From Thioploca ingrica (lineage in GTDB: Bacteria; Pseudomonadota; Gammaproteobacteria; Beggiatoales; Beggiatoaceae): a stretch of DNA of 64,000 nucleotides. A model generated the notes under the pieces. The model was not told where the DNA came from and did not search any database. It saw only the letters and a list, made by a program, of their open reading frames with translations. Positions 45,135 through 63,269 of this stretch are shown piece by piece. Numbering within the stretch: position 1 is the stretch's first letter; each line of letters begins with the position of its first letter. The position numbers were made by a program, and so were the translations under genes. The DNA is taken from positions 4,092,001 through 4,156,000 of the forward strand of contig AP014633.1 of NCBI GenBank assembly GCA_000828835.1. Direction: 5' to 3'.

Positions 45135-46379
45135 TCATATAACCGGTGCAGCCACAGAGTACTGCGGTGATTCCGGTAGCGGCGCAATAAACTCAGCAAA
45201 TTCCGGTTTACTCCGATCTTGGATAAAAGCATGAGTGATTTTCTGGTTGTAATCCGAATCAGTTAATATTTCCAGTAAATATTCCGCTGGATTTCGATCT
45301 CGCGCTTCGGTAGCCGTAATTTTTTGAAAATACGAGGTTGCCTGTTGACTCGGTCCATAATAAGTTAGGCTACCTTCTTGATTCATCAGGAGTAAATTAT
45401 CAAAGCGGTGAAAAGTATCTCGGCTGGGTTGATGTATCGTGATAATCGTGGTTAATTCCTGCTGTTTGGTTAAGCGTTGCAACAACTCCATGATATTATC
45501 GGCATCAACTGAAGATAGACCCGAAGTCGGTTCGTCGAGTAATAAAATCAGTGGCATCGCTATCAATTCATGAGCGAGGTTGGCTCGTTTTCTTTCACCA
45601 CCGCTTAAGCCACGAATCCCCGCTTGAACCGAACCAATGACCGTATGTAAAAACTTTTCTAAGCGTTGTTCTTCTTGAAAACCAAGACTTTGAGCGGTTT
45701 GACGAATCAAGTGCTCCCGTATTTCAGTTCCTAAATGAATAAATTGCAATCTGAGGCAGTAATCGAGAGATTGGTAAACGGTTAATTCGGGAATCATCAC
45801 ATCATCTTGGGGAAGGTAACCGAGCCATTCGCGTACTTGTCCATATTGTTGATGAACGGGGATAAATTCGTGGTGTTTATTAACCCAGACTTGACCCCGA
45901 TCCGGTAACCGATAGCCGCTAACTAAATCGAGTAAAGTACTCTTACCACAACCCGCTGCGCCCATAATCGCTGTTATCGTGCCCGGTTGAGCTTGTAAAT
46001 AGGCGCCGTTACAAATTAATTTGCCGGCTATGGAGTAATATAAAGGTGTCGTCGCTATCCCGACACGGGAACGCCCACGAAATAACTGTGCATCAATTCC
46101 AATGGGCGTTTGACCGAATTTAATTTCATTGGGTTGGGAAGGAATGGGAATAATTTCTACCCACTTTTTTTTAGGCAAGCGGTGATCATTAATAAAAATG
46201 CCTTCTTTGGAGGTCAAATCTTTTATAAATAACCGATCACGCACGCGTTTAAGAATCGCTTGTTTTGGGGTAATACTGGGTACTTCAGTGGGTGTTAACC
46301 GAATGTTACAGGCTTTGCTACTCCCAATGAGAATTTCAAAATCACCGCTTAACCCAATTGATTTATAATTTTTCTCCAT
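45135..46379 (-). CDS. FHA domain fused to ABCG-type ATPase
   Basis: The product is 414 residues. The N-terminal FHA domain (about 10-85; GSSKACNIRL, IKDLTSKEGIFINDHRL) would read phosphothreonine. The ABC ATPase follows: Walker A GAAGCGKST, signature LSGGERKR, Walker B LILLLDEPTSGL and a switch His in TIHQPSRD. It belongs to the ABCG/White group. Related proteins continue into an ABC2 membrane domain, but this one stops about 70 residues after the ATPase and no permease lies nearby. It may pair with a permease elsewhere under Ser/Thr kinase control. Confidence 0.85.
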   Translation of the reverse strand: MEKNYKSIGLSGDFEILIGSSKACNIRLTPTEVPSITPKQAILKRVRDRLFIKDLTSKEGIFINDHRLPKKKWVEIIPIPSQPNEIKFGQTPIGIDAQLFRGRSRVGIATTPLYYSIAGKLICNGAYLQAQPGTITAIMGAAGCGKSTLLDLVSGYRLPDRGQVWVNKHHEFIPVHQQYGQVREWLGYLPQDDVMIPELTVYQSLDYCLRLQFIHLGTEIREHLIRQTAQSLGFQEEQRLEKFLHTVIGSVQAGIRGLSGGERKRANLAHELIAMPLILLLDEPTSGLSSVDADNIMELLQRLTKQQELTTIITIHQPSRDTFHRFDNLLLMNQEGSLTYYGPSQQATSYFQKITATEARDRNPAEYLLEILTDSDYNQKITHAFIQDRSKPEFAEFIAPLPESPQYSVAAPVI

Positions 46380-49429: not shown

Positions 49430-49834
49430 ATGAAGATCAATGAAATTTGCACTGATATTATTGAAGATATGAACTTTGCTTTGGGTTGTGCAGTAATCGA
49501 CTTAAACAGTGGTTTATTAGTGGGAATTGCACATCGATCTCCCTATTTTTCTCAATCTAATTTAGATACGGCTGCGGTGGCGGCAGTGGAAATGTTCCGA
49601 GGTAGAACGGTAATGGCGATTGAACAAATGATTTCTCATATGCGAGGTAAAGAGGAATACTTGATGATCGAAGAGATTCAAATGACCACTAAAAATACTT
49701 ATCACTTTATGGCGGTTATTCCAGAAAAACCCAATAATATGGTTGTACTTATCACGACTAAAACCATTAGTTTAGGAATGGGGTGGTCTACTTTGCGGAT
49801 AGCTTTACCAAAATTAGCACCGTTTTGTTCATAG
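49430..49834 (+). CDS. Roadblock/LC7-like protein (copy 1)
   Basis: This 134-residue single-domain protein has the alternating helix-sheet pattern of Roadblock/LC7 proteins: GCAVIDLNSGLLVGIAH, then an AAVAAVEMFRG helix, then TYHFMAVIPEKP and MVVLITTK strands. Roadblock proteins such as MglB regulate small GTPases. GGAG lies 7 bases before the ATG. The gene is about 60 percent identical to the one at 50205 and lies 3 kb from an MglA-like GTPase gene. The GTPase-regulator role is inference. Confidence 0.65.
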   Translation: MKINEICTDIIEDMNFALGCAVIDLNSGLLVGIAHRSPYFSQSNLDTAAVAAVEMFRGRTVMAIEQMISHMRGKEEYLMIEEIQMTTKNTYHFMAVIPEKPNNMVVLITTKTISLGMGWSTLRIALPKLAPFCS

Positions 49835-50204
49835 CGGAGGGTAATACTAATTACTATTCCAAAGTCTTCTATAAAATTAACCATCATCTCAGGGCGTTTT
49901 CACTTAAAATAACATCCTGCCGATAGTATCAATGAGTAATCTCTTGAAATCTAATGAGTCCAAATTGAACAACATCTTGAACAAAATGACTCCATTACCA
50001 GCAGTCGCAACCTAAGCGAATTATGGAATTTAACTCACCGAGTTGATTCAGTGGCTGCCATAATGGATTCTTATTCCCCGTTCACTATCGGGAATTCATG
50101 GGAATGACCAACGATTGATTGTACAATCGATTATTTTAAACCGTATTTTTAATCGAATTCACGTTAATTAGCAAAATTTTAGGTATACGAATCATAGGAG
50201 CAAA
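49835..50204. other. Spacer between the two Roadblock-like genes
   Basis: No gene or clear repeat is seen in these 370 bases. The length and the separate ribosome binding site of the next gene suggest that copy 2 has its own promoter. Confidence 0.3.
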
Positions 50205-50612
50205 ATGATGGATATTAACGATATTTGTGCAGAGATTGTTCGTAATGTAGATTCTGCTTTAGGTTGTGCCGTGGTCGACTTAAATAGTGGTTTACTTTTA
50301 GGTGTTTCACATAATGTACCCTATTTTACTCAGTCTTACCTGGATGCGGTTGCCGCAGCAGCAGTGGATATGTTTCGTGGTAGAACCGTGAGTACGGTAG
50401 AAGATATGATTGGAAATATGCGTGGTAATCTGAGAAAAAACCTGATCAAAGAAATCCAGATGACGACTGATAATACTTACCATTTTATGACAGTCGTTCC
50501 CGATAAACCCAATGCGTTAGTCGTACTTATCACCAGTAAAAAAGCGAATTTGGGCATGGGATGGTCTCATATCCGCAACGCTGTGCCTAAGTTAACCCCT
50601 TTATGTCCCTAA
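50205..50612 (+). CDS. Roadblock/LC7-like protein (copy 2)
   Basis: This 135-residue paralogue of the protein at 49430 shares GCAVVDLNSGLLLG, PYFTQSYLDA, DMFRGRTV, EIQMTTDNTYHFM and LGMGWSHIR. GGAG is placed for either of two adjacent ATG codons (50205 or 50208). The two copies probably arose by local duplication and could form a heterodimer. Role inferred as for copy 1. Confidence 0.65.
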   Translation: MMDINDICAEIVRNVDSALGCAVVDLNSGLLLGVSHNVPYFTQSYLDAVAAAAVDMFRGRTVSTVEDMIGNMRGNLRKNLIKEIQMTTDNTYHFMTVVPDKPNALVVLITSKKANLGMGWSHIRNAVPKLTPLCP

Positions 50613-50693
50613 AAAGGGGTATTCATTGGTTTGGGGCGCAGGGTGTATTTCTGCGCCTACAGAGTGGCGAGTTAGGGTTAACTGGATTTATTG

Positions 50694-52223
50694 CTATTCG
50701 AATCGCTTTTTAAGAAGCCCAATTAAGGTTTCCGGAAAACCGTAATTTTCCATGTCAGTAATCGTAGTGGCTATATTATAAGGTAAGTTATGATAATAAA
50801 TCTTCCGTTCGTGTTGATCATAAATCGCAAACTGAGCACCAAAAGGCTGACTGCGTGGTTGCCCGATTGAACCTGGACAGATCAAAGCATGATCAAATTG
50901 TTTTAAATCAACGACTCTATCATAAATAAACTTATCTTGATGCTGACTACGTCCATAAACCCCGGGCTTGTGGGTATGACCGTGAAAACAAATAGGTATA
51001 TTTTTACGTTGTAACACATCTAAATTATCTGAATAAGTCATTTCATAAACATAGGCATTAAAAAAAGTGGGATCAATCGGTGCACCATGTACGGCTAACC
51101 AATGATCATGGTGAATCAGCGGTGGTAAACTAGCCAGCCAACTTTTTTGGGTGGCACTGACGTGGTCAATACTCCATTGTAGTGCCCATATCGCTGGACG
51201 AGAAAAGTTATTTTCCAATTGCTCATTTGCTAGACTATGATCATGATTGCCTTTAATAAAACTAAAATTTAGGGTTTGCAATTGTTCAATACATTGACCG
51301 GGGTGAGGTCCATAACCCACAATATCTCCCAGTACAATACCCGTTTGAATCCCTTTTAAGTTAAGGAAATCAAGGACCACCTTGAGCGCGGGGAAGTTAG
51401 CATGAATATCTGCCAATACCGCAATATAACGAGCTTGACTCAAATGCTGAGTTGGAGAAGTGATTTGATGAACAATTAATTGATTAATAAAACTGTTCAA
51501 GCGCTGGCGGTGTGATTCGGTTGGCATATAAACTTCTTTTAACAATTCAGCCAACACAATCAAATCATGAGCATCGTTGAAATGTTTTAAAATGAGATCA
51601 TGGACAATTTTGCCAAGTTGATCAGCAACAGCAGACTCTAACCAAGCGAGTGAGCGAAAATAAACGCCTAACATTTGTGCACTGGAAATAAAACGATCCC
51701 AAGTATAAATATCATCATCTAAATAAAATAATTGTTGCTCGGCGCTGACACCAAAGTTAGATAAGCCTTCATCCAACCGAACTTTCATCTGCTTAGCTAA
51801 GCGAAAGTAGTGATCAAAGAGTTGACTGAAATAATTGAGCGCTTGAGAAATATCGATAGTGTCTTGAGTTAACAAATCATGCAGCGGTTGTAATCGTGGA
51901 CAAATGCTCCCAATTAAAGCTGTCGATTGAGTATCGGTTTCAGCCACAAACCAAGTTTTATGAGGATGATAGATTTGATAATGTTTTTCTTTAGCTAAAG
52001 TTTGTTCAGCCCAACGTTTAGCAAAAATCGGTTCTAAGCGAATTTCACAACGGATTTTAAGTATAGCGTCTGGTTCAATATAAATCTGGGTACTGGGACG
52101 ACCGGTAAAAGTATTTCCATGTAATAAAGACTGGGGTTGTGTGTTAAGTAGTCGTAAAATATCAGCCGGCTCATAGGGCGAATCGGCACCCACTGCACCA
52201 ATTAAGGTAATGTGATAAGTCAT
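50694..52223 (-). CDS. Kinase-like domain fused to calcineurin-like metallophosphoesterase
   Basis: The product is 509 residues. Residues 30-190 show an eukaryotic-like or aminoglycoside-kinase-like core: K56 (ILKIR), E79 as a possible helix-C Glu, D151 and N156 in LDEGLSNFG (D to N spacing of five as in HRDLKPEN), and a metal Asp around 169-171. Residues 265-470 form a metallophosphoesterase: D272/H274 (ADIHANF), D300 (GDIVGYGP), GNHD at 325-328, H379 and GHTH at 415-418. Both opposing activities may sit in one chain. The ATG at 52223 is 7 bases after AAGGA; a TTG lies two codons upstream. It is divergent to the MglA-like GTPase gene. Confidence 0.78.
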   Translation of the reverse strand: MTYHITLIGAVGADSPYEPADILRLLNTQPQSLLHGNTFTGRPSTQIYIEPDAILKIRCEIRLEPIFAKRWAEQTLAKEKHYQIYHPHKTWFVAETDTQSTALIGSICPRLQPLHDLLTQDTIDISQALNYFSQLFDHYFRLAKQMKVRLDEGLSNFGVSAEQQLFYLDDDIYTWDRFISSAQMLGVYFRSLAWLESAVADQLGKIVHDLILKHFNDAHDLIVLAELLKEVYMPTESHRQRLNSFINQLIVHQITSPTQHLSQARYIAVLADIHANFPALKVVLDFLNLKGIQTGIVLGDIVGYGPHPGQCIEQLQTLNFSFIKGNHDHSLANEQLENNFSRPAIWALQWSIDHVSATQKSWLASLPPLIHHDHWLAVHGAPIDPTFFNAYVYEMTYSDNLDVLQRKNIPICFHGHTHKPGVYGRSQHQDKFIYDRVVDLKQFDHALICPGSIGQPRSQPFGAQFAIYDQHERKIYYHNLPYNIATTITDMENYGFPETLIGLLKKRFE

Positions 52224-52352
52224 ATACAATTCCTTTAAAATAAACGACTTTTTTCAAGTAATGAAAAAGCCGACGGCTTGCTGCGTGTAAATAATATTTG
52301 TAACATGATACCCAACTGAGAACAGACAGCGTAGATTAAGGATTGGTAAAGG

Positions 52353-55208
52353 ATGGCGATAATTGATATCGAACGCGATGTTATCGTAGTTCGGATAGTG
52401 TATGATGGTCCACCATTTTCTGGTAAAACTACCAGTGTTCATGCACTCGCAAAAATTCTGGATAAACGTGATACCGTTTTTTCCCCTCAAGAAGATCCTT
52501 TGAGTAAAACACTTTATTTTGACTGGATGGAATATTGTGGTGGATTCTTTAAAGGGTACAGTATCTCTTGTCAAATCATTAGTGTGCCTGGACAACTTTC
52601 GTTAATGGAACGTCGTCATTTTCTGTTACGCACAGCAGATAGTGTGGTTTTTGTCCTGGATGCCAGTGAAGCCAATACTGAGATTGCTTTAACTTATTTT
52701 AATGATTTACAACAACTGCTTTCCCCAGAAGACCACCACTTCGTTCAGGTCATTATCCAAGCCAATAAACAAGATAAACCCAAAGCTTTGTCTGCTTTAC
52801 AATTGAAACAGACGCTATTCCCAGATTATCCCAACATTAAAATCGTTGATTCAGCAGCGATAGCCGGTAAAGGTATTCGAGAAACGTTTGTTTTAGCTGT
52901 TAGGCTGGCGTTGGAGCGAGCCGAAGTTTTAATGGTAAAAGGTCAATTGGATCATGGTCATCCGGAAATCGATAGTGGTGAAGATTTATTTACTCAGCTA
53001 CAGAAAGATCTATTTCTCCAAACAACGCCTTTAAAATCTGAAGCAATTCCGCTGGTTGAATCAAACTCAGCAGAGCAAACTGAACTCGTCACCACGAATA
53101 TTGCTTTCCAATCCGATCAAGATATTATAACAGAAGAATCAACTCAAGAAATTGATACCGCTTATGGTACCGAAAATCAGTTAGAAGAACTGAATTCTGA
53201 GTCAACGGCATTGTTTGAACAACTGGATAATAATCATGAAGATGTCATTGCAGCGGCTGACTCCACCGCCACCCTTGAATCTGCCGAATCGCTTGCAGAA
53301 TTAACCGAAATCACGGCTACACTTCCACCAACACCCAGCGATATAGAACTCAATGAATTGCCTTTGGAATTGGTTGATTTATTTGAACCATTCACAGAAT
53401 TTGAAGATCCTGATGATGAGTGGAATGAAGAATGGGTAGAACCCTTGCTCGGAACAGAAGCCTTTACCGAAGAAGAAGAGGAATTTTTTAACCAATTAAT
53501 AGCGAGTAGTCAAATTGCTGAAGAAGAAATAGAAGAAGATTTTGAAGAGCCCCTTTATTCCGAAACGGTAGGAACTACATTTGCCGATGCTAACCAATTA
53601 ACTGAAAAATCTATATCATTTTTTGATGACTTAGATCAAAGTGACGCAACCACAATTGCGGATTTATCTCTAGAACATCCTCTTCCCACGACGACTGAAG
53701 TGAGTGAATTATCACCTCCTTCAATGTATTCAAACTCAAAAACTTTTGAAGATTTAGCAGCAGAAGATTTAGCAGCAGATGATTCTCATATTGATTCATC
53801 TACCGCGACTAATGAATTGCTCACTTCAACCTCAGCAGCAATAGAACCGCCCAGTTTACTAGAACCAGCGCTGGTTAAAGATTGGATGGAATTAGATGAT
53901 TCCAAACCAACCGAAGCGCTTGAACCATTATTACCCACCAAGCCAACAACAACGGAGTCAGTGGTAGTTGAAGCCGTTGAACCAATTGCTTCAACCTCAG
54001 CCGCAATAGAACCGCCCAGTTTACTAGAACCAGCGCTGGTTAAAGATTGGATGGAATTAGATGATTCCGAACCAGCCGAATCGCTTGAACCACTACCCAC
54101 CGAGCTAACAACAACGGAGTTAGTAGTAGCTGAAGCCATTGAACCGATTACTTCAACCCCAGAAGCAATAGAACCGCCGAGTTTCCTAGAACCAGCGCTG
54201 GTTAAAGATTGGATGGAATTAGATGATTCCAACTCAGCCGAAGCGCTTGAACCATTGCCCACCGAGCCAACAACAACGGAGTCAGTGGTAGCTGAAGCCA
54301 TTGAACCGATTGCTTCAACCTCAGCCGCGCTTGAACCGCCGAGTTTACTAGAATCGCTGGCGGTTAAAAATGACGTGGAATTAGATGATTCCGAGGTAAC
54401 CCATCTACCTTTTATGGCTAAAGAAGAGATAAGCACCTTACCGATTTTACTCGAAACCACACCGCTATCCACAGAACCAGCACTTTCTCCAAAGGTATCT
54501 CTCCCACTTGTTCCTAATGAAACCATATCAAATCAATGGATTTGGCCACCGCTAGCTGGGCGAACTTGGATACAAACCATTTTTCATGCGCCAACTCAGA
54601 TTGCTCAAAAATCTAATGGCATATGGATTATCGAAGCCACCAATAACTGGTCTGGCTTTTCCAAGGCAGAATGGTTATACCATGATATTCAATTAGCCAA
54701 ACAAGCACTACATGATCATATTCGCATGCACCTACAGTGTAGTCCGCTGTTGTCAGAAAAACGTGGTATCGTTATAGCTGCTGATGAAGAAAATTGGCGT
54801 TTATGGCAACTGGTTCAGTTAGAAACAACCTTAGCGACCCATTTGCTTATGGCTTTGCAAGAAAACACCATGGACAAATTAGCCTTAGAAGTATTTAGAT
54901 GTGTTAGCCATTACGCAGAGGTGTATTTACGTTGTGCCCAATATCCCTCCTATCTCGATTTGAACCTGGAAAATATTGGCAGCAATCAAGAACGACAATT
55001 AGTTTATGTCGGAATAGTCGATTCAATTTTGCCGGTGAATGAACGAACTCAAGCCGGATTGCTTGACTCGATTAAGCAACTGTTAATTGAGCCCATTAAA
55101 CAGGCTAAAGATAATCTAGATATAGCGGCTATCGTTAATGAATTAGAAAAAATTGATGGTTTTGGACAACACTACCTTTTAGAAGTATTGATTCAACTAT
55201 TTCGGTAA
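52353..55208 (+). CDS. MglA-like small GTPase with acidic repeat tail
   Basis: The product is 951 residues. Residues 10-190 form an MglA/Ras-type GTPase: G1 GPPFSGKTT (19-27), TLYFDWM switch I (53-59), VPGQ instead of DxxGQ (78-81, as in MglA), NKQD (138-141) and a possible G5 around DSAAI. Residues 200-725 are highly acidic and disordered and include four repeats of about 54 residues (IEPPSLLEPALVKDWMELDD). A distinct C-terminal domain (725-951) is unknown. MglA proteins set cell polarity and gliding direction with Roadblock regulators. The neighbouring Roadblock-like genes support that reading. Confidence 0.8.
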   Translation: MAIIDIERDVIVVRIVYDGPPFSGKTTSVHALAKILDKRDTVFSPQEDPLSKTLYFDWMEYCGGFFKGYSISCQIISVPGQLSLMERRHFLLRTADSVVFVLDASEANTEIALTYFNDLQQLLSPEDHHFVQVIIQANKQDKPKALSALQLKQTLFPDYPNIKIVDSAAIAGKGIRETFVLAVRLALERAEVLMVKGQLDHGHPEIDSGEDLFTQLQKDLFLQTTPLKSEAIPLVESNSAEQTELVTTNIAFQSDQDIITEESTQEIDTAYGTENQLEELNSESTALFEQLDNNHEDVIAAADSTATLESAESLAELTEITATLPPTPSDIELNELPLELVDLFEPFTEFEDPDDEWNEEWVEPLLGTEAFTEEEEEFFNQLIASSQIAEEEIEEDFEEPLYSETVGTTFADANQLTEKSISFFDDLDQSDATTIADLSLEHPLPTTTEVSELSPPSMYSNSKTFEDLAAEDLAADDSHIDSSTATNELLTSTSAAIEPPSLLEPALVKDWMELDDSKPTEALEPLLPTKPTTTESVVVEAVEPIASTSAAIEPPSLLEPALVKDWMELDDSEPAESLEPLPTELTTTELVVAEAIEPITSTPEAIEPPSFLEPALVKDWMELDDSNSAEALEPLPTEPTTTESVVAEAIEPIASTSAALEPPSLLESLAVKNDVELDDSEVTHLPFMAKEEISTLPILLETTPLSTEPALSPKVSLPLVPNETISNQWIWPPLAGRTWIQTIFHAPTQIAQKSNGIWIIEATNNWSGFSKAEWLYHDIQLAKQALHDHIRMHLQCSPLLSEKRGIVIAADEENWRLWQLVQLETTLATHLLMALQENTMDKLALEVFRCVSHYAEVYLRCAQYPSYLDLNLENIGSNQERQLVYVGIVDSILPVNERTQAGLLDSIKQLLIEPIKQAKDNLDIAAIVNELEKIDGFGQHYLLEVLIQLFR
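53815..54405 (+). repeat. Tandem in-frame repeats inside the MglA-like gene
   Basis: Four units with periods of 165, 162 and 162 bases; the fourth is degenerate. The core encodes EPPSLLEPALVKDWMELDDS followed by an EALEPLPTEPTTTESVV-like stretch. The copies are near-identical at DNA level, so repeat number may vary between strains. Confidence 0.85.
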
Positions 55209-60992: not shown

Positions 60993-61607
60993 ATGCCACC
61001 ACGCAACGTTCGTCGACCCATTACTGATCACTACGACCCCAAACAACGTATTGTGGGGGGAATAGTACTATTTTTGTTAATGCTACTTATTTACAGTCTG
61101 TTAAAATTAGTACTCGGCTTTTCCTCCGTTCCAGAAGGGCGGTTTGAAATTGGTGCCCCTTTAACTGCAGAAATTCTCAGTAGCGCCAGTGGGTTAGATA
61201 AAAAACAGACTTTGCGAGCCACGGATAGTTCGATTGCCTCACCTCAAATAAACTATCCACTACCATCAGGATTTGTTTTCTTGGATCTGAAAGGTAACCC
61301 GACGCAAAAGGAAGTTTATCAGGCAGCTACTCCAGCCGGATCAGCAGAAATATATACTACAGCAACGAGTGGCGAAGAAAAATGGTACGTACAGGCAGCC
61401 AGTTTCAAGGATGAAGCGCTGGCGCAAAATTTAGTACAGAAAATTAAAGATAATCATATTGCTACCGAAGCGCATATTGTCCAAAGCAGTAATGGTTGGT
61501 ATGCAGTGCGGCTTCCGCCTCAAAGCGAGCAAGAAAAGGTTAGACAACAACATCAACAATTACGAGATGTGTTGAGAATTAATGGGATAATTAAGAAATT
61601 AAATTGA
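60993..61607 (+). CDS. Membrane protein with SPOR domain
   Basis: The product is 204 residues with a short basic cytoplasmic N-terminus, a membrane helix at about 21-43, a periplasmic linker and a C-terminal SPOR domain (about 128-195; EEKWYVQAASFKDEALAQN, AHIVQSSNGWYAVRL). SPOR domains bind denuded peptidoglycan at division sites. The last 278 bases of the gene are the start of a duplicated 954-base unit, so a second copy of the SPOR part exists downstream. Confidence 0.85.
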   Translation: MPPRNVRRPITDHYDPKQRIVGGIVLFLLMLLIYSLLKLVLGFSSVPEGRFEIGAPLTAEILSSASGLDKKQTLRATDSSIASPQINYPLPSGFVFLDLKGNPTQKEVYQAATPAGSAEIYTTATSGEEKWYVQAASFKDEALAQNLVQKIKDNHIATEAHIVQSSNGWYAVRLPPQSEQEKVRQQHQQLRDVLRINGIIKKLN

Positions 61608-62283
61608 TAAATAGTCTATTGAGGGAATAGTTATGCTTCGTTTAGTAGCGATTGCAGCAGGAGGAGCGGTAGGTGCAGTGCTACGTTTTGGGTTAACCAA
61701 TGGGGTACATGCGTTATTAAACACTAAGTTTCCGTATGGTACCTTAGTGGTCAATGTATTAGGCTGTTTGGCTATGGGGTTTTTATCGGTGGTGATGTTA
61801 GAACGTTTTGTCAGCGTAGAATGGCGCGCTGCCTTACTGACCGGTTTATTAGGTGCTTTTACCACTTTCTCGACTTTTTCATTAGAAACGTTGAATTTAC
61901 TAAACCAAGGTGAATCGACTAAAGCATTACTGAATATTTTTCTTAGCTTCAGCTTGTGTTTGTTGGCAACATGGTTAGGTTTATCTTGGGCGAGACAATT
62001 ATGAAACCTATTACTATGGTACGAATTTATCTGACCGAGGCTGAAAAGAAATTAGCGCCGTTATTAAAATACTTGCATGATGACAGCCAAGTTCTTGGTG
62101 TGACCGTGTTGAGAGGCATTAGTGGCTTTGGCAAATCGGGTAAAATTCATAGTGCTCATTTAATCGATTTATCTTTTGACTTGCCGGTGATAGTTGAATT
62201 TTTTGATACGCCCACCAAAATTGATCATATTTTACTGCAATTACAGACTTTAATTGAACCAGGACATCTCGTTCATTGGTCTG
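61330..62283. repeat. 954-bp tandem duplication, copy A
   Basis: This segment is repeated immediately as 62284-63237. I saw one difference (T at 62153, C at 63107). The three-base microhomology CTC marks each boundary (61330, 62284, 63238). The unit covers the SPOR domain, crcB and most of the DUF190 gene. Confidence 0.95.
61633..62004 (+). CDS. crcB: Fluoride channel CrcB/Fluc, copy 1
   Basis: This 123-residue membrane protein has four helices and exports fluoride as a dual-topology dimer. Fluc motifs are GAVGAVLRFGL, PYGTLVVNVLGCLAMG and TTFSTFSLET. GAGGG lies upstream of the ATG. The stop overlaps the DUF190 start (ATGA), suggesting translational coupling. It is identical to copy 2 at 62587. 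Confidence 0.93.
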   Translation: MLRLVAIAAGGAVGAVLRFGLTNGVHALLNTKFPYGTLVVNVLGCLAMGFLSVVMLERFVSVEWRAALLTGLLGAFTTFSTFSLETLNLLNQGESTKALLNIFLSFSLCLLATWLGLSWARQL

Positions 62284-62561
62284 CTCCAGCCGGATCAGCA
62301 GAAATATATACTACAGCAACGAGTGGCGAAGAAAAATGGTACGTACAGGCAGCCAGTTTCAAGGATGAAGCGCTGGCGCAAAATTTAGTACAGAAAATTA
62401 AAGATAATCATATTGCTACCGAAGCGCATATTGTCCAAAGCAGTAATGGTTGGTATGCAGTGCGGCTTCCGCCTCAAAGCGAGCAAGAAAAGGTTAGACA
62501 ACAACATCAACAATTACGAGATGTGTTGAGAATTAATGGGATAATTAAGAAATTAAATTGA
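62001..62561 (+). CDS. Chimeric DUF190-SPOR protein made by tandem duplication
   Basis: The product is 186 residues. Residues 1-94 are DUF190 ([37 protein letters not shown]). The chain then crosses the duplication junction in frame into the SPOR domain copied from the gene at 60993. DUF190 proteins accompany CrcB and are thought to be regulatory (P-II-like fold). The SPOR part lacks its membrane anchor, so the chimera is cytoplasmic and its SPOR domain probably idle. It may be a by-product of the duplication. Confidence 0.85.
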   Translation: MKPITMVRIYLTEAEKKLAPLLKYLHDDSQVLGVTVLRGISGFGKSGKIHSAHLIDLSFDLPVIVEFFDTPTKIDHILLQLQTLIEPGHLVHWSAPAGSAEIYTTATSGEEKWYVQAASFKDEALAQNLVQKIKDNHIATEAHIVQSSNGWYAVRLPPQSEQEKVRQQHQQLRDVLRINGIIKKLN

Positions 62562-63237
62562 TAAATAGTCTATTGAGGGAATAGTTATGCTTCGTTTAGT
62601 AGCGATTGCAGCAGGAGGAGCGGTAGGTGCAGTGCTACGTTTTGGGTTAACCAATGGGGTACATGCGTTATTAAACACTAAGTTTCCGTATGGTACCTTA
62701 GTGGTCAATGTATTAGGCTGTTTGGCTATGGGGTTTTTATCGGTGGTGATGTTAGAACGTTTTGTCAGCGTAGAATGGCGCGCTGCCTTACTGACCGGTT
62801 TATTAGGTGCTTTTACCACTTTCTCGACTTTTTCATTAGAAACGTTGAATTTACTAAACCAAGGTGAATCGACTAAAGCATTACTGAATATTTTTCTTAG
62901 CTTCAGCTTGTGTTTGTTGGCAACATGGTTAGGTTTATCTTGGGCGAGACAATTATGAAACCTATTACTATGGTACGAATTTATCTGACCGAGGCTGAAA
63001 AGAAATTAGCGCCGTTATTAAAATACTTGCATGATGACAGCCAAGTTCTTGGTGTGACCGTGTTGAGAGGCATTAGTGGCTTTGGCAAATCGGGTAAAAT
63101 TCATAGCGCTCATTTAATCGATTTATCTTTTGACTTGCCGGTGATAGTTGAATTTTTTGATACGCCCACCAAAATTGATCATATTTTACTGCAATTACAG
63201 ACTTTAATTGAACCAGGACATCTCGTTCATTGGTCTG
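62284..63237. repeat. 954-bp tandem duplication, copy B
   Basis: Second copy of 61330-62283, nearly identical. It restores an intact DUF190 gene after a second crcB. Either a very recent amplification or an assembly duplication. Confidence 0.95.
62587..62958 (+). CDS. crcB: Fluoride channel CrcB/Fluc, copy 2
   Basis: This 123-residue protein is identical to copy 1 at 61633, with the same Fluc motifs and ribosome binding site. Its stop overlaps the intact DUF190 gene. Two identical copies would raise dosage rather than give the heterodimers known in some Gram-positive bacteria. Confidence 0.93.
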   Translation: MLRLVAIAAGGAVGAVLRFGLTNGVHALLNTKFPYGTLVVNVLGCLAMGFLSVVMLERFVSVEWRAALLTGLLGAFTTFSTFSLETLNLLNQGESTKALLNIFLSFSLCLLATWLGLSWARQL

Positions 63238-63269
63238 CTCAAGTTAATGATAACAACGATAATAGCTAA
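62955..63269 (+). CDS. DUF190 family protein (intact)
   Basis: This 104-residue protein keeps the normal DUF190 end ([16 protein letters not shown]). It carries the same N-terminal domain as the chimera at 62001. It overlaps crcB copy 2 by 4 bases and precedes serS by 5, so the ancestral order was SPOR-crcB-DUF190-serS. Probably helps regulate fluoride export; the exact role is not known. Confidence 0.88.

Follow-up and report, generated by a model that had tools for sequence, protein, structure and literature searches.

A Roadblock-like protein paired with a kinase-like/phosphatase fusion: a candidate regulatory input to MglA-type GTPase signalling in Gammaproteobacteria

The MglA/MglB switches are the textbook example of polarity in bacterial cells, and many filamentous sulfur bacteria glide. 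Does a cluster of four genes in the single-contig, 4.81-Mb genome of Thioploca ingrica encode a module of this kind, and on which GTPase would it act? The genes lie in a stretch of 64,000 nucleotides (bases 4,092,001-4,156,000, hereafter the window) and encode two Roadblock-like proteins (RblA and RblB, together Rbl), a kinase-like/phosphoesterase fusion (KP) and a long GTPase. A sequence-only reading had placed within about 6 kb (49430-55208) two paralogous Roadblock-like proteins, a fused kinase-like/calcineurin-like phosphoesterase and a GTPase with MglA hallmarks. All four open reading frames (ORFs) were confirmed there, and the three descriptions are borne out by the comparisons below. 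Moreover, conservation across genomes indicates that the Rbl and KP genes truly belong together as a module of MglA/MglB-type signalling, whose main partner appears to be a GTPase other than the one encoded beside them in the window.

The Roadblock-like proteins and the kinase-like/phosphoesterase fusion

In the family, 24 of 43 genomes contain Rbl, and precisely these 24 also contain full-length KP. Of 369 sampled genomes of the class, 17 gave strong Rbl matches, and 14 of these 17, but no other genome, hold full-length KP (hypergeometric probabilities of 1e-12 for the family and 9e-23 for the class, with genomes treated as independent though related). Adjacency of Rbl and KP across many families stands apart from these figures, the two being neighbours in seven family genomes, in most other Rbl-bearing Gammaproteobacteria and in all ten KP genomes of the class sample outside the family. 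The counts leave aside six class genomes with weak Rbl matches (E 1e-14 to 1e-18), in several of which the gene lies next to one for an ABC-type ATPase and is a member of a different Roadblock-like family, as well as KP-profile matches to the phosphoesterase domain only (G032 and eight class genomes); in G002, KP is split in two pieces. The long GTPase is present in 19 of the 24 Rbl/KP family genomes and in one further genome, and is the divergent neighbour of KP in nine genomes. The window neighbours also lie close together in G041, the nearest genome and of the same genus, while Rbl, a second Roadblock, GTPase with its C-terminal domain (CTD) and KP stand together in L224, a metagenome-assembled genome (MAG) of Methylococcales, and a set comparable to that of the window is found in L205, a gammaproteobacterial MAG. 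Recurrence of the genes as neighbours elsewhere had been set beforehand as the check on the locus, and they do recur. Globin genes lie close to Rbl/KP in L202, L203, L210, L221 and L248, a proximity reminiscent of HGbRL, the fusion of globin and Roadblock in Methylacidiphilum (PMC4476040).

Neither RblA nor RblB has a Roadblock match in Pfam or NCBIfam, and the Pfam profile Robl_LC7 (PF03259) matches 0 of 30 Rbl members. A profile of these 30 found a single notable relative in the PDB, Myxococcus MglC (E 0.02). The AlphaFold model of RblB (66 input sequences; predicted local distance difference test score, pLDDT, 89.7) aligns over the whole chain with MglB (6hjm_K; Z 16.9, 2.1 Å, 119 residues), and MglB structures also head its Foldseek matches (best E 2.9e-9). 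RblB is thus predicted to carry the MglB/Roadblock fold and, because the Robl_LC7 profile does not match, Rbl is classed on its fold alone as a divergent family of Roadblock-fold proteins. Conservation of RblB is striking, with relatives about 54-72% identical outside the family in Marinobacter, Marinobacterium, Methylococcales, Chromatiales, Competibacter and a zetaproteobacterial MAG. RblA and RblB themselves are 61-62% identical paralogues, and in a rough tree resting on few alignment columns RblA groups with second copies from other genera of the family (eight genomes; support 96/82), so that the duplication probably arose once, within this family, with the RblA side evolving faster. The duplicated regulator of the sequence-only reading is therefore real for RblA and RblB, but it appears to have that single family origin and does not extend to the second Roadblock of L205 (L205:6442) and L224 (L224:2099), which belongs to a distant family. 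This latter family, likewise without a Pfam label, is also present in L152, L154, L155 and L158, and in several genomes its gene adjoins that of an ABC-type ATPase.

The C-terminal half of KP matches PF00149 (E 7e-12). In the KP model (pLDDT 94.1), its closest folds are 3rqz (Z 30.8) and SapH (Z 25.7), both aligned to the phosphoesterase half only, and the fold is also that of the PP1, PP2A and calcineurin-type protein phosphatases (Z 16-17). Metal ligands D274, H276, D302, N328, H329, H381, H418 and H420 are invariant among 53 sequences, and this half is a calcineurin-like metallophosphoesterase with an intact metal site. Equally invariant among the 53 are K58, E81, D153, N158 and D171 of the N-terminal half, with kinase-type spacing (D153 and N158 five residues apart, D171 thirteen further on); in the model, K58 sits in a strand and E81 in the next helix, in the strand and helix order expected for kinases. 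We therefore regard the KP N-terminus as kinase-like, a putative kinase whose catalytic positions look intact. Matches from the fold search span only residues 255-501 of KP, the phosphoesterase filling the list, so that the search (no kinase listed) is uninformative about the N-terminus.

The long GTPase and the Group 3 operon

The best PDB relatives of the first ~200 residues of the long GTPase are MglA structures (3t12, E 6.3e-18), and its motifs comprise the P-loop GPPFSGKTT, KTLYFDW, SVPGQ (G3) and NKQD (G4). GKT of the P-loop is present in 22 of 22 aligned GTPases of this type, whereas the catalytic Gln of G3 is altered in about half of them. Where MglA has its arginine finger, adjacent to the threonine of G2, the window GTPase has Lys (KTLYFDW), and only five of the 22 have Arg. 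According to PMC4316618, this intrinsic finger is conserved in all Group 1 members; lacking it, the window GTPase is classed as MglA-like and not as a Group 1 MglA. In the GTPases of this type from G005 and G006, which belong to one genus (L092, L091), both G3 and G4 are altered, with P-loop and CTD retained, from which GTP hydrolysis has probably been lost.

The GTPase domain is followed by an acidic linker of ~540 residues (23% D+E, 2.4% K+R) holding 3.5 in-frame copies of a 162-bp repeat (53824-54394, found with TRF), and then by the CTD. When profiles were compared, the pair formed by the CTD and the KP N-terminus scored 84-86% probability and E 5-8e-6, whereas none of 17 control pairs did better than E 0.024, indicating that the CTD is a degenerate relative of the KP kinase-like domain, a relic that the sequence-only reading had not described. 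The CTD also occurs as a stand-alone gene between Rbl and KP in three Methylococcales MAGs (L176, L177, L225); these 237-aa neighbours were labelled GTPases by BLAST, an assignment we rejected since in the alignment they are CTDs without a P-loop. Its occurrence both fused and as a neighbouring gene ties the GTPase to the Rbl-KP pair.

The commonest place of Rbl and KP is after an operon that encodes a protein of ~340 aa, a small GTPase of ~175 aa and a canonical Roadblock (PF03259, E 4.5e-6); Marinobacter, Chromatiales, Competibacteraceae, Marithrix and Thiomargarita nelsonii are among the examples. The GTPase sequences show the motifs LYGTPGQ and DAR. This operon matches the Group 3 MglA system which, according to PMC4316618, consists of an unknown protein with receiver-like and winged helix-turn-helix-like parts, one or two MglB, and a GTPase in which G4 is altered and GTPGQ and DAR are present; the ~340-aa protein would then be the putatively receiver-like one. 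The Thioploca genome has such an operon at 1.5375-1.5396 Mb. Moreover, a GTPase of the matching Group 3 subtype (at least 61% identical) is present in 22 of the 24 Rbl/KP genomes of the family; the remaining 19 genomes lack it and contain at most paralogues that are less closely related.

Next to the Thioploca Group 3 operon lie two CheY-like genes, one CheW-like gene, one methyl-accepting chemotaxis protein (MCP) gene and one more. NCBIfam assigns them to general families only; from gene order, we take them to be pilG-pilH-pilI-pilJ-chpA-like. This adjacency was seen in four genomes of three genera. Genome G000 holds three Group 3-type GTPases, at 1.5379, 1.5399 and 2.4903 Mb (L244, L245), the first two in tandem beside a CheY/CheY/CheW/MCP cluster.

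Proposed role of the pair and alternatives

Rbl and KP are found more often with a Group 3 GTPase, and relatives of the window GTPase vary at the arginine-finger position and often lose the catalytic Gln; it is therefore unlikely that the window GTPase acts as the main switch. Thus, the earlier proposal of MglA/MglB-type signalling with an added enzyme stands, whereas its choice of the window GTPase as Rbl partner is less well supported, a Group 3 GTPase being likelier. The reading we favour, tentatively and at somewhat less than an even chance, is that the locus is the Rbl-KP part of a regulatory module acting on MglA-type small GTPases, mainly of Group 3, with output through type IV pili and gliding. 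Rbl would act like MglB or MglC, binding and tuning the Group 3 GTPase together with, or instead of, the canonical Roadblock, and KP would reversibly phosphorylate a member of the module, be it Rbl, a GTPase or the receiver-like protein, this phosphorylation cycle setting the GTP cycle of the small GTPase. In some lineages, the long GTPase-CTD protein may serve as an adaptor or decoy for KP or Rbl. Most likely, the output would be control of where type IV pili are placed, or of their reversal, and through this of the gliding of filaments. Polarity of pili or of gliding is a reasonable guess since Group 3 systems commonly have more than one Roadblock for each GTPase, since mutation of an orphan Group 3 mglB is linked to altered pilus-dependent motility in Snodgrassella (PMC11112851), and since in Myxococcus full GTPase-activating (GAP) activity of MglB requires a second factor, RomY (PMC9481161).

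Several observations weigh against this reading. Searches of Pfam and the PDB gave no sequence relative of the KP kinase-like domain, and 2.6 Mb separate the window Rbl and KP genes from the Group 3 operon. Adjacency of that operon to the pil-chp-like genes is missing in most other family genomes examined. PilM (PF11104) is found in 343 of the 369 class genomes and, being nearly universal, lends no support to a pilus link; pilus presence was accordingly dropped as a discriminator. Motility, while plausible, is therefore the weakest step of the explanation.

Were motility not the output, Rbl and KP could belong to a GTPase module controlling transcription, c-di-GMP or redox that is merely common to surface-living Gammaproteobacteria. 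The winged-helix part predicted in the Group 3 unknown protein, for which a transcriptional output was proposed (PMC4316618), would fit this, as would the PilZ, GGDEF-EAL and globin genes near some copies and the presence of Rbl/KP in bacteria in which gliding is not known to us; the chemosensory cluster adjoining the Group 3 operon in four genomes and the Snodgrassella phenotype argue the other way, and we consider such an output rather unlikely. That the four genes are instead a self-contained polarity module, in which both Rbl proteins directly regulate the window GTPase and KP is an accessory, would be in keeping with their close spacing in the window and in G041, with the comparable sets of L224 and L205, and with a GTPase closest to MglA whose P-loop, SVPGQ and NKQD are intact. 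Yet in five Rbl/KP family genomes no window-type GTPase passes the threshold used, in most Rbl/KP loci beyond the family its place is taken by a Group 3 GTPase, and the arginine finger and catalytic Gln are poorly kept among the relatives, making this unlikely. Very unlikely, in our judgement, is a KP that acts on small molecules or nucleotides, for example by Ap4A-type hydrolysis together with a small-molecule kinase, its product being sensed by the Roadblock or GTPase with no protein phosphorylation cycle: although SapH, an Ap4A hydrolase/phosphodiesterase, is the nearest phosphoesterase structure with a named activity and the kinase-like domain matches no protein-kinase family, protein phosphatases share the fold, and the conserved linkage of KP to Roadblock and receiver-like proteins would suit a protein substrate.

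Our favoured reading, that Rbl and KP act mainly on Group 3 GTPases, has a bolder form: an undescribed gammaproteobacterial module in which a one-chain kinase-phosphatase governs a Roadblock-controlled small GTPase, with a pseudokinase-GTPase fusion as adaptor, and so sets both the polarity and the reversals of pilus-driven gliding in filamentous sulfur bacteria. We regard it as doubtful in this full form. The sequence-only reading had considered the locus unlike any described system, and this agrees with our search: the accessible literature on Roadblock proteins with metallophosphoesterases and on Xanthomonas and Lysobacter twitching yielded no account of the Rbl-KP pair, most subscription papers lying outside the search. 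Nor did we find in the accessible literature a worked-out mechanism for the Group 3 systems of beta- and gamma-Proteobacteria, to which Rbl, a Roadblock fold invisible to Pfam, and KP would provide a concrete and testable regulatory input. Since Rbl carriers include the culturable genera Marinobacter, Marinobacterium and Solimonas, this could be tested without recourse to uncultured sulfur bacteria. If the output is motility, the pair would also open a way to study how Beggiatoa-type filaments control the reversal of their gliding, for which we know of no molecular account.

Locus layout and comparison with known systems

KP is encoded on the minus strand, divergently from the GTPase gene and convergently with the Rbl genes, so the four genes are a cluster and not one operon (Table 1); both the KP and the GTPase promoter presumably lie in the gap between these two genes. 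PADLOC gave no match among the four, on which ground an anti-phage defence role was rejected, and a phage origin was set aside because matches to PHROGs were only weak or to a generic phosphatase. Elsewhere in the window, an FHA domain fused to an ABC-type ATPase (45135-46379), a possible phospho-threonine reader, is encoded ~3 kb from RblA. At 60993-63269, a stretch of ~954 bases occurs in tandem, with 123-aa ORFs at 61633-62004 and 62587-62958 that translate identically and neighbouring ORFs that end in identical tails; the repeat may be either a real duplication or an assembly artefact.

Table 1. Positions of the four genes and their parts in the window.
Feature	Positions	Strand	Description
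RblA	49430-49834	+	134 aa; Roadblock-like; faster-evolving paralogue of RblB
RblB	50205-50612	+	135 aa; Roadblock-like; copy kept across Gammaproteobacteria
KP	50694-52229	-	511 aa; kinase-like (~1-255) and metallophosphoesterase (~265-510)
KP/GTPase intergenic gap	52230-52352	.	123 bases between divergent genes
Long GTPase, whole gene	52353-55208	+	951 aa
MglA-like GTPase domain	52353-52970	+	Match to MglA 3t12; motifs
Acidic low-complexity linker of long GTPase	52971-54602	+	TRF repeat; residue composition
CTD of long GTPase	54603-55208	+	Degenerate relative of KP kinase-like domain (profile comparison)

Compared with known systems, KP shares the fold and metal site of its C-terminal domain with 3rqz and with SapH, an asymmetric Ap4A hydrolase; the match is limited to the phosphoesterase half, to which KP adds the kinase-like domain. 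The Group 1 module of Myxococcus xanthus (MglA, MglB, MglC and RomR) resembles the locus in its MglA-like domain, its MglB-fold proteins and its use of more than one Roadblock protein, but differs at the arginine-finger position, which is Lys in the window GTPase and variable in its family; to our knowledge, that polarity module has no counterpart of KP or of the CTD. In actinobacterial conservons (Group 2: histidine kinase, Roadblock, CvnC and GTPase, as given in PMC4316618), a phosphorylation enzyme is likewise coupled to a Roadblock-GTPase pair, although theirs is a membrane histidine kinase and that of the window a soluble kinase-like/phosphatase fusion without detectable similarity to it. 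Closest are the Group 3 systems of beta- and gamma-Proteobacteria, whose operon type neighbours Rbl/KP in many genera and, in the Thioploca genome, stands at another site. They differ in that the accessible part of PMC4316618 names no kinase or phosphoesterase partner for them, in that Rbl falls outside Pfam Robl_LC7, and in the window GTPase, with its long linker and kinase-like relic. Together, these comparisons suggest that the new part is the kinase-like/phosphatase enzyme, added to MglA/MglB-type GTPase signalling of a known kind.

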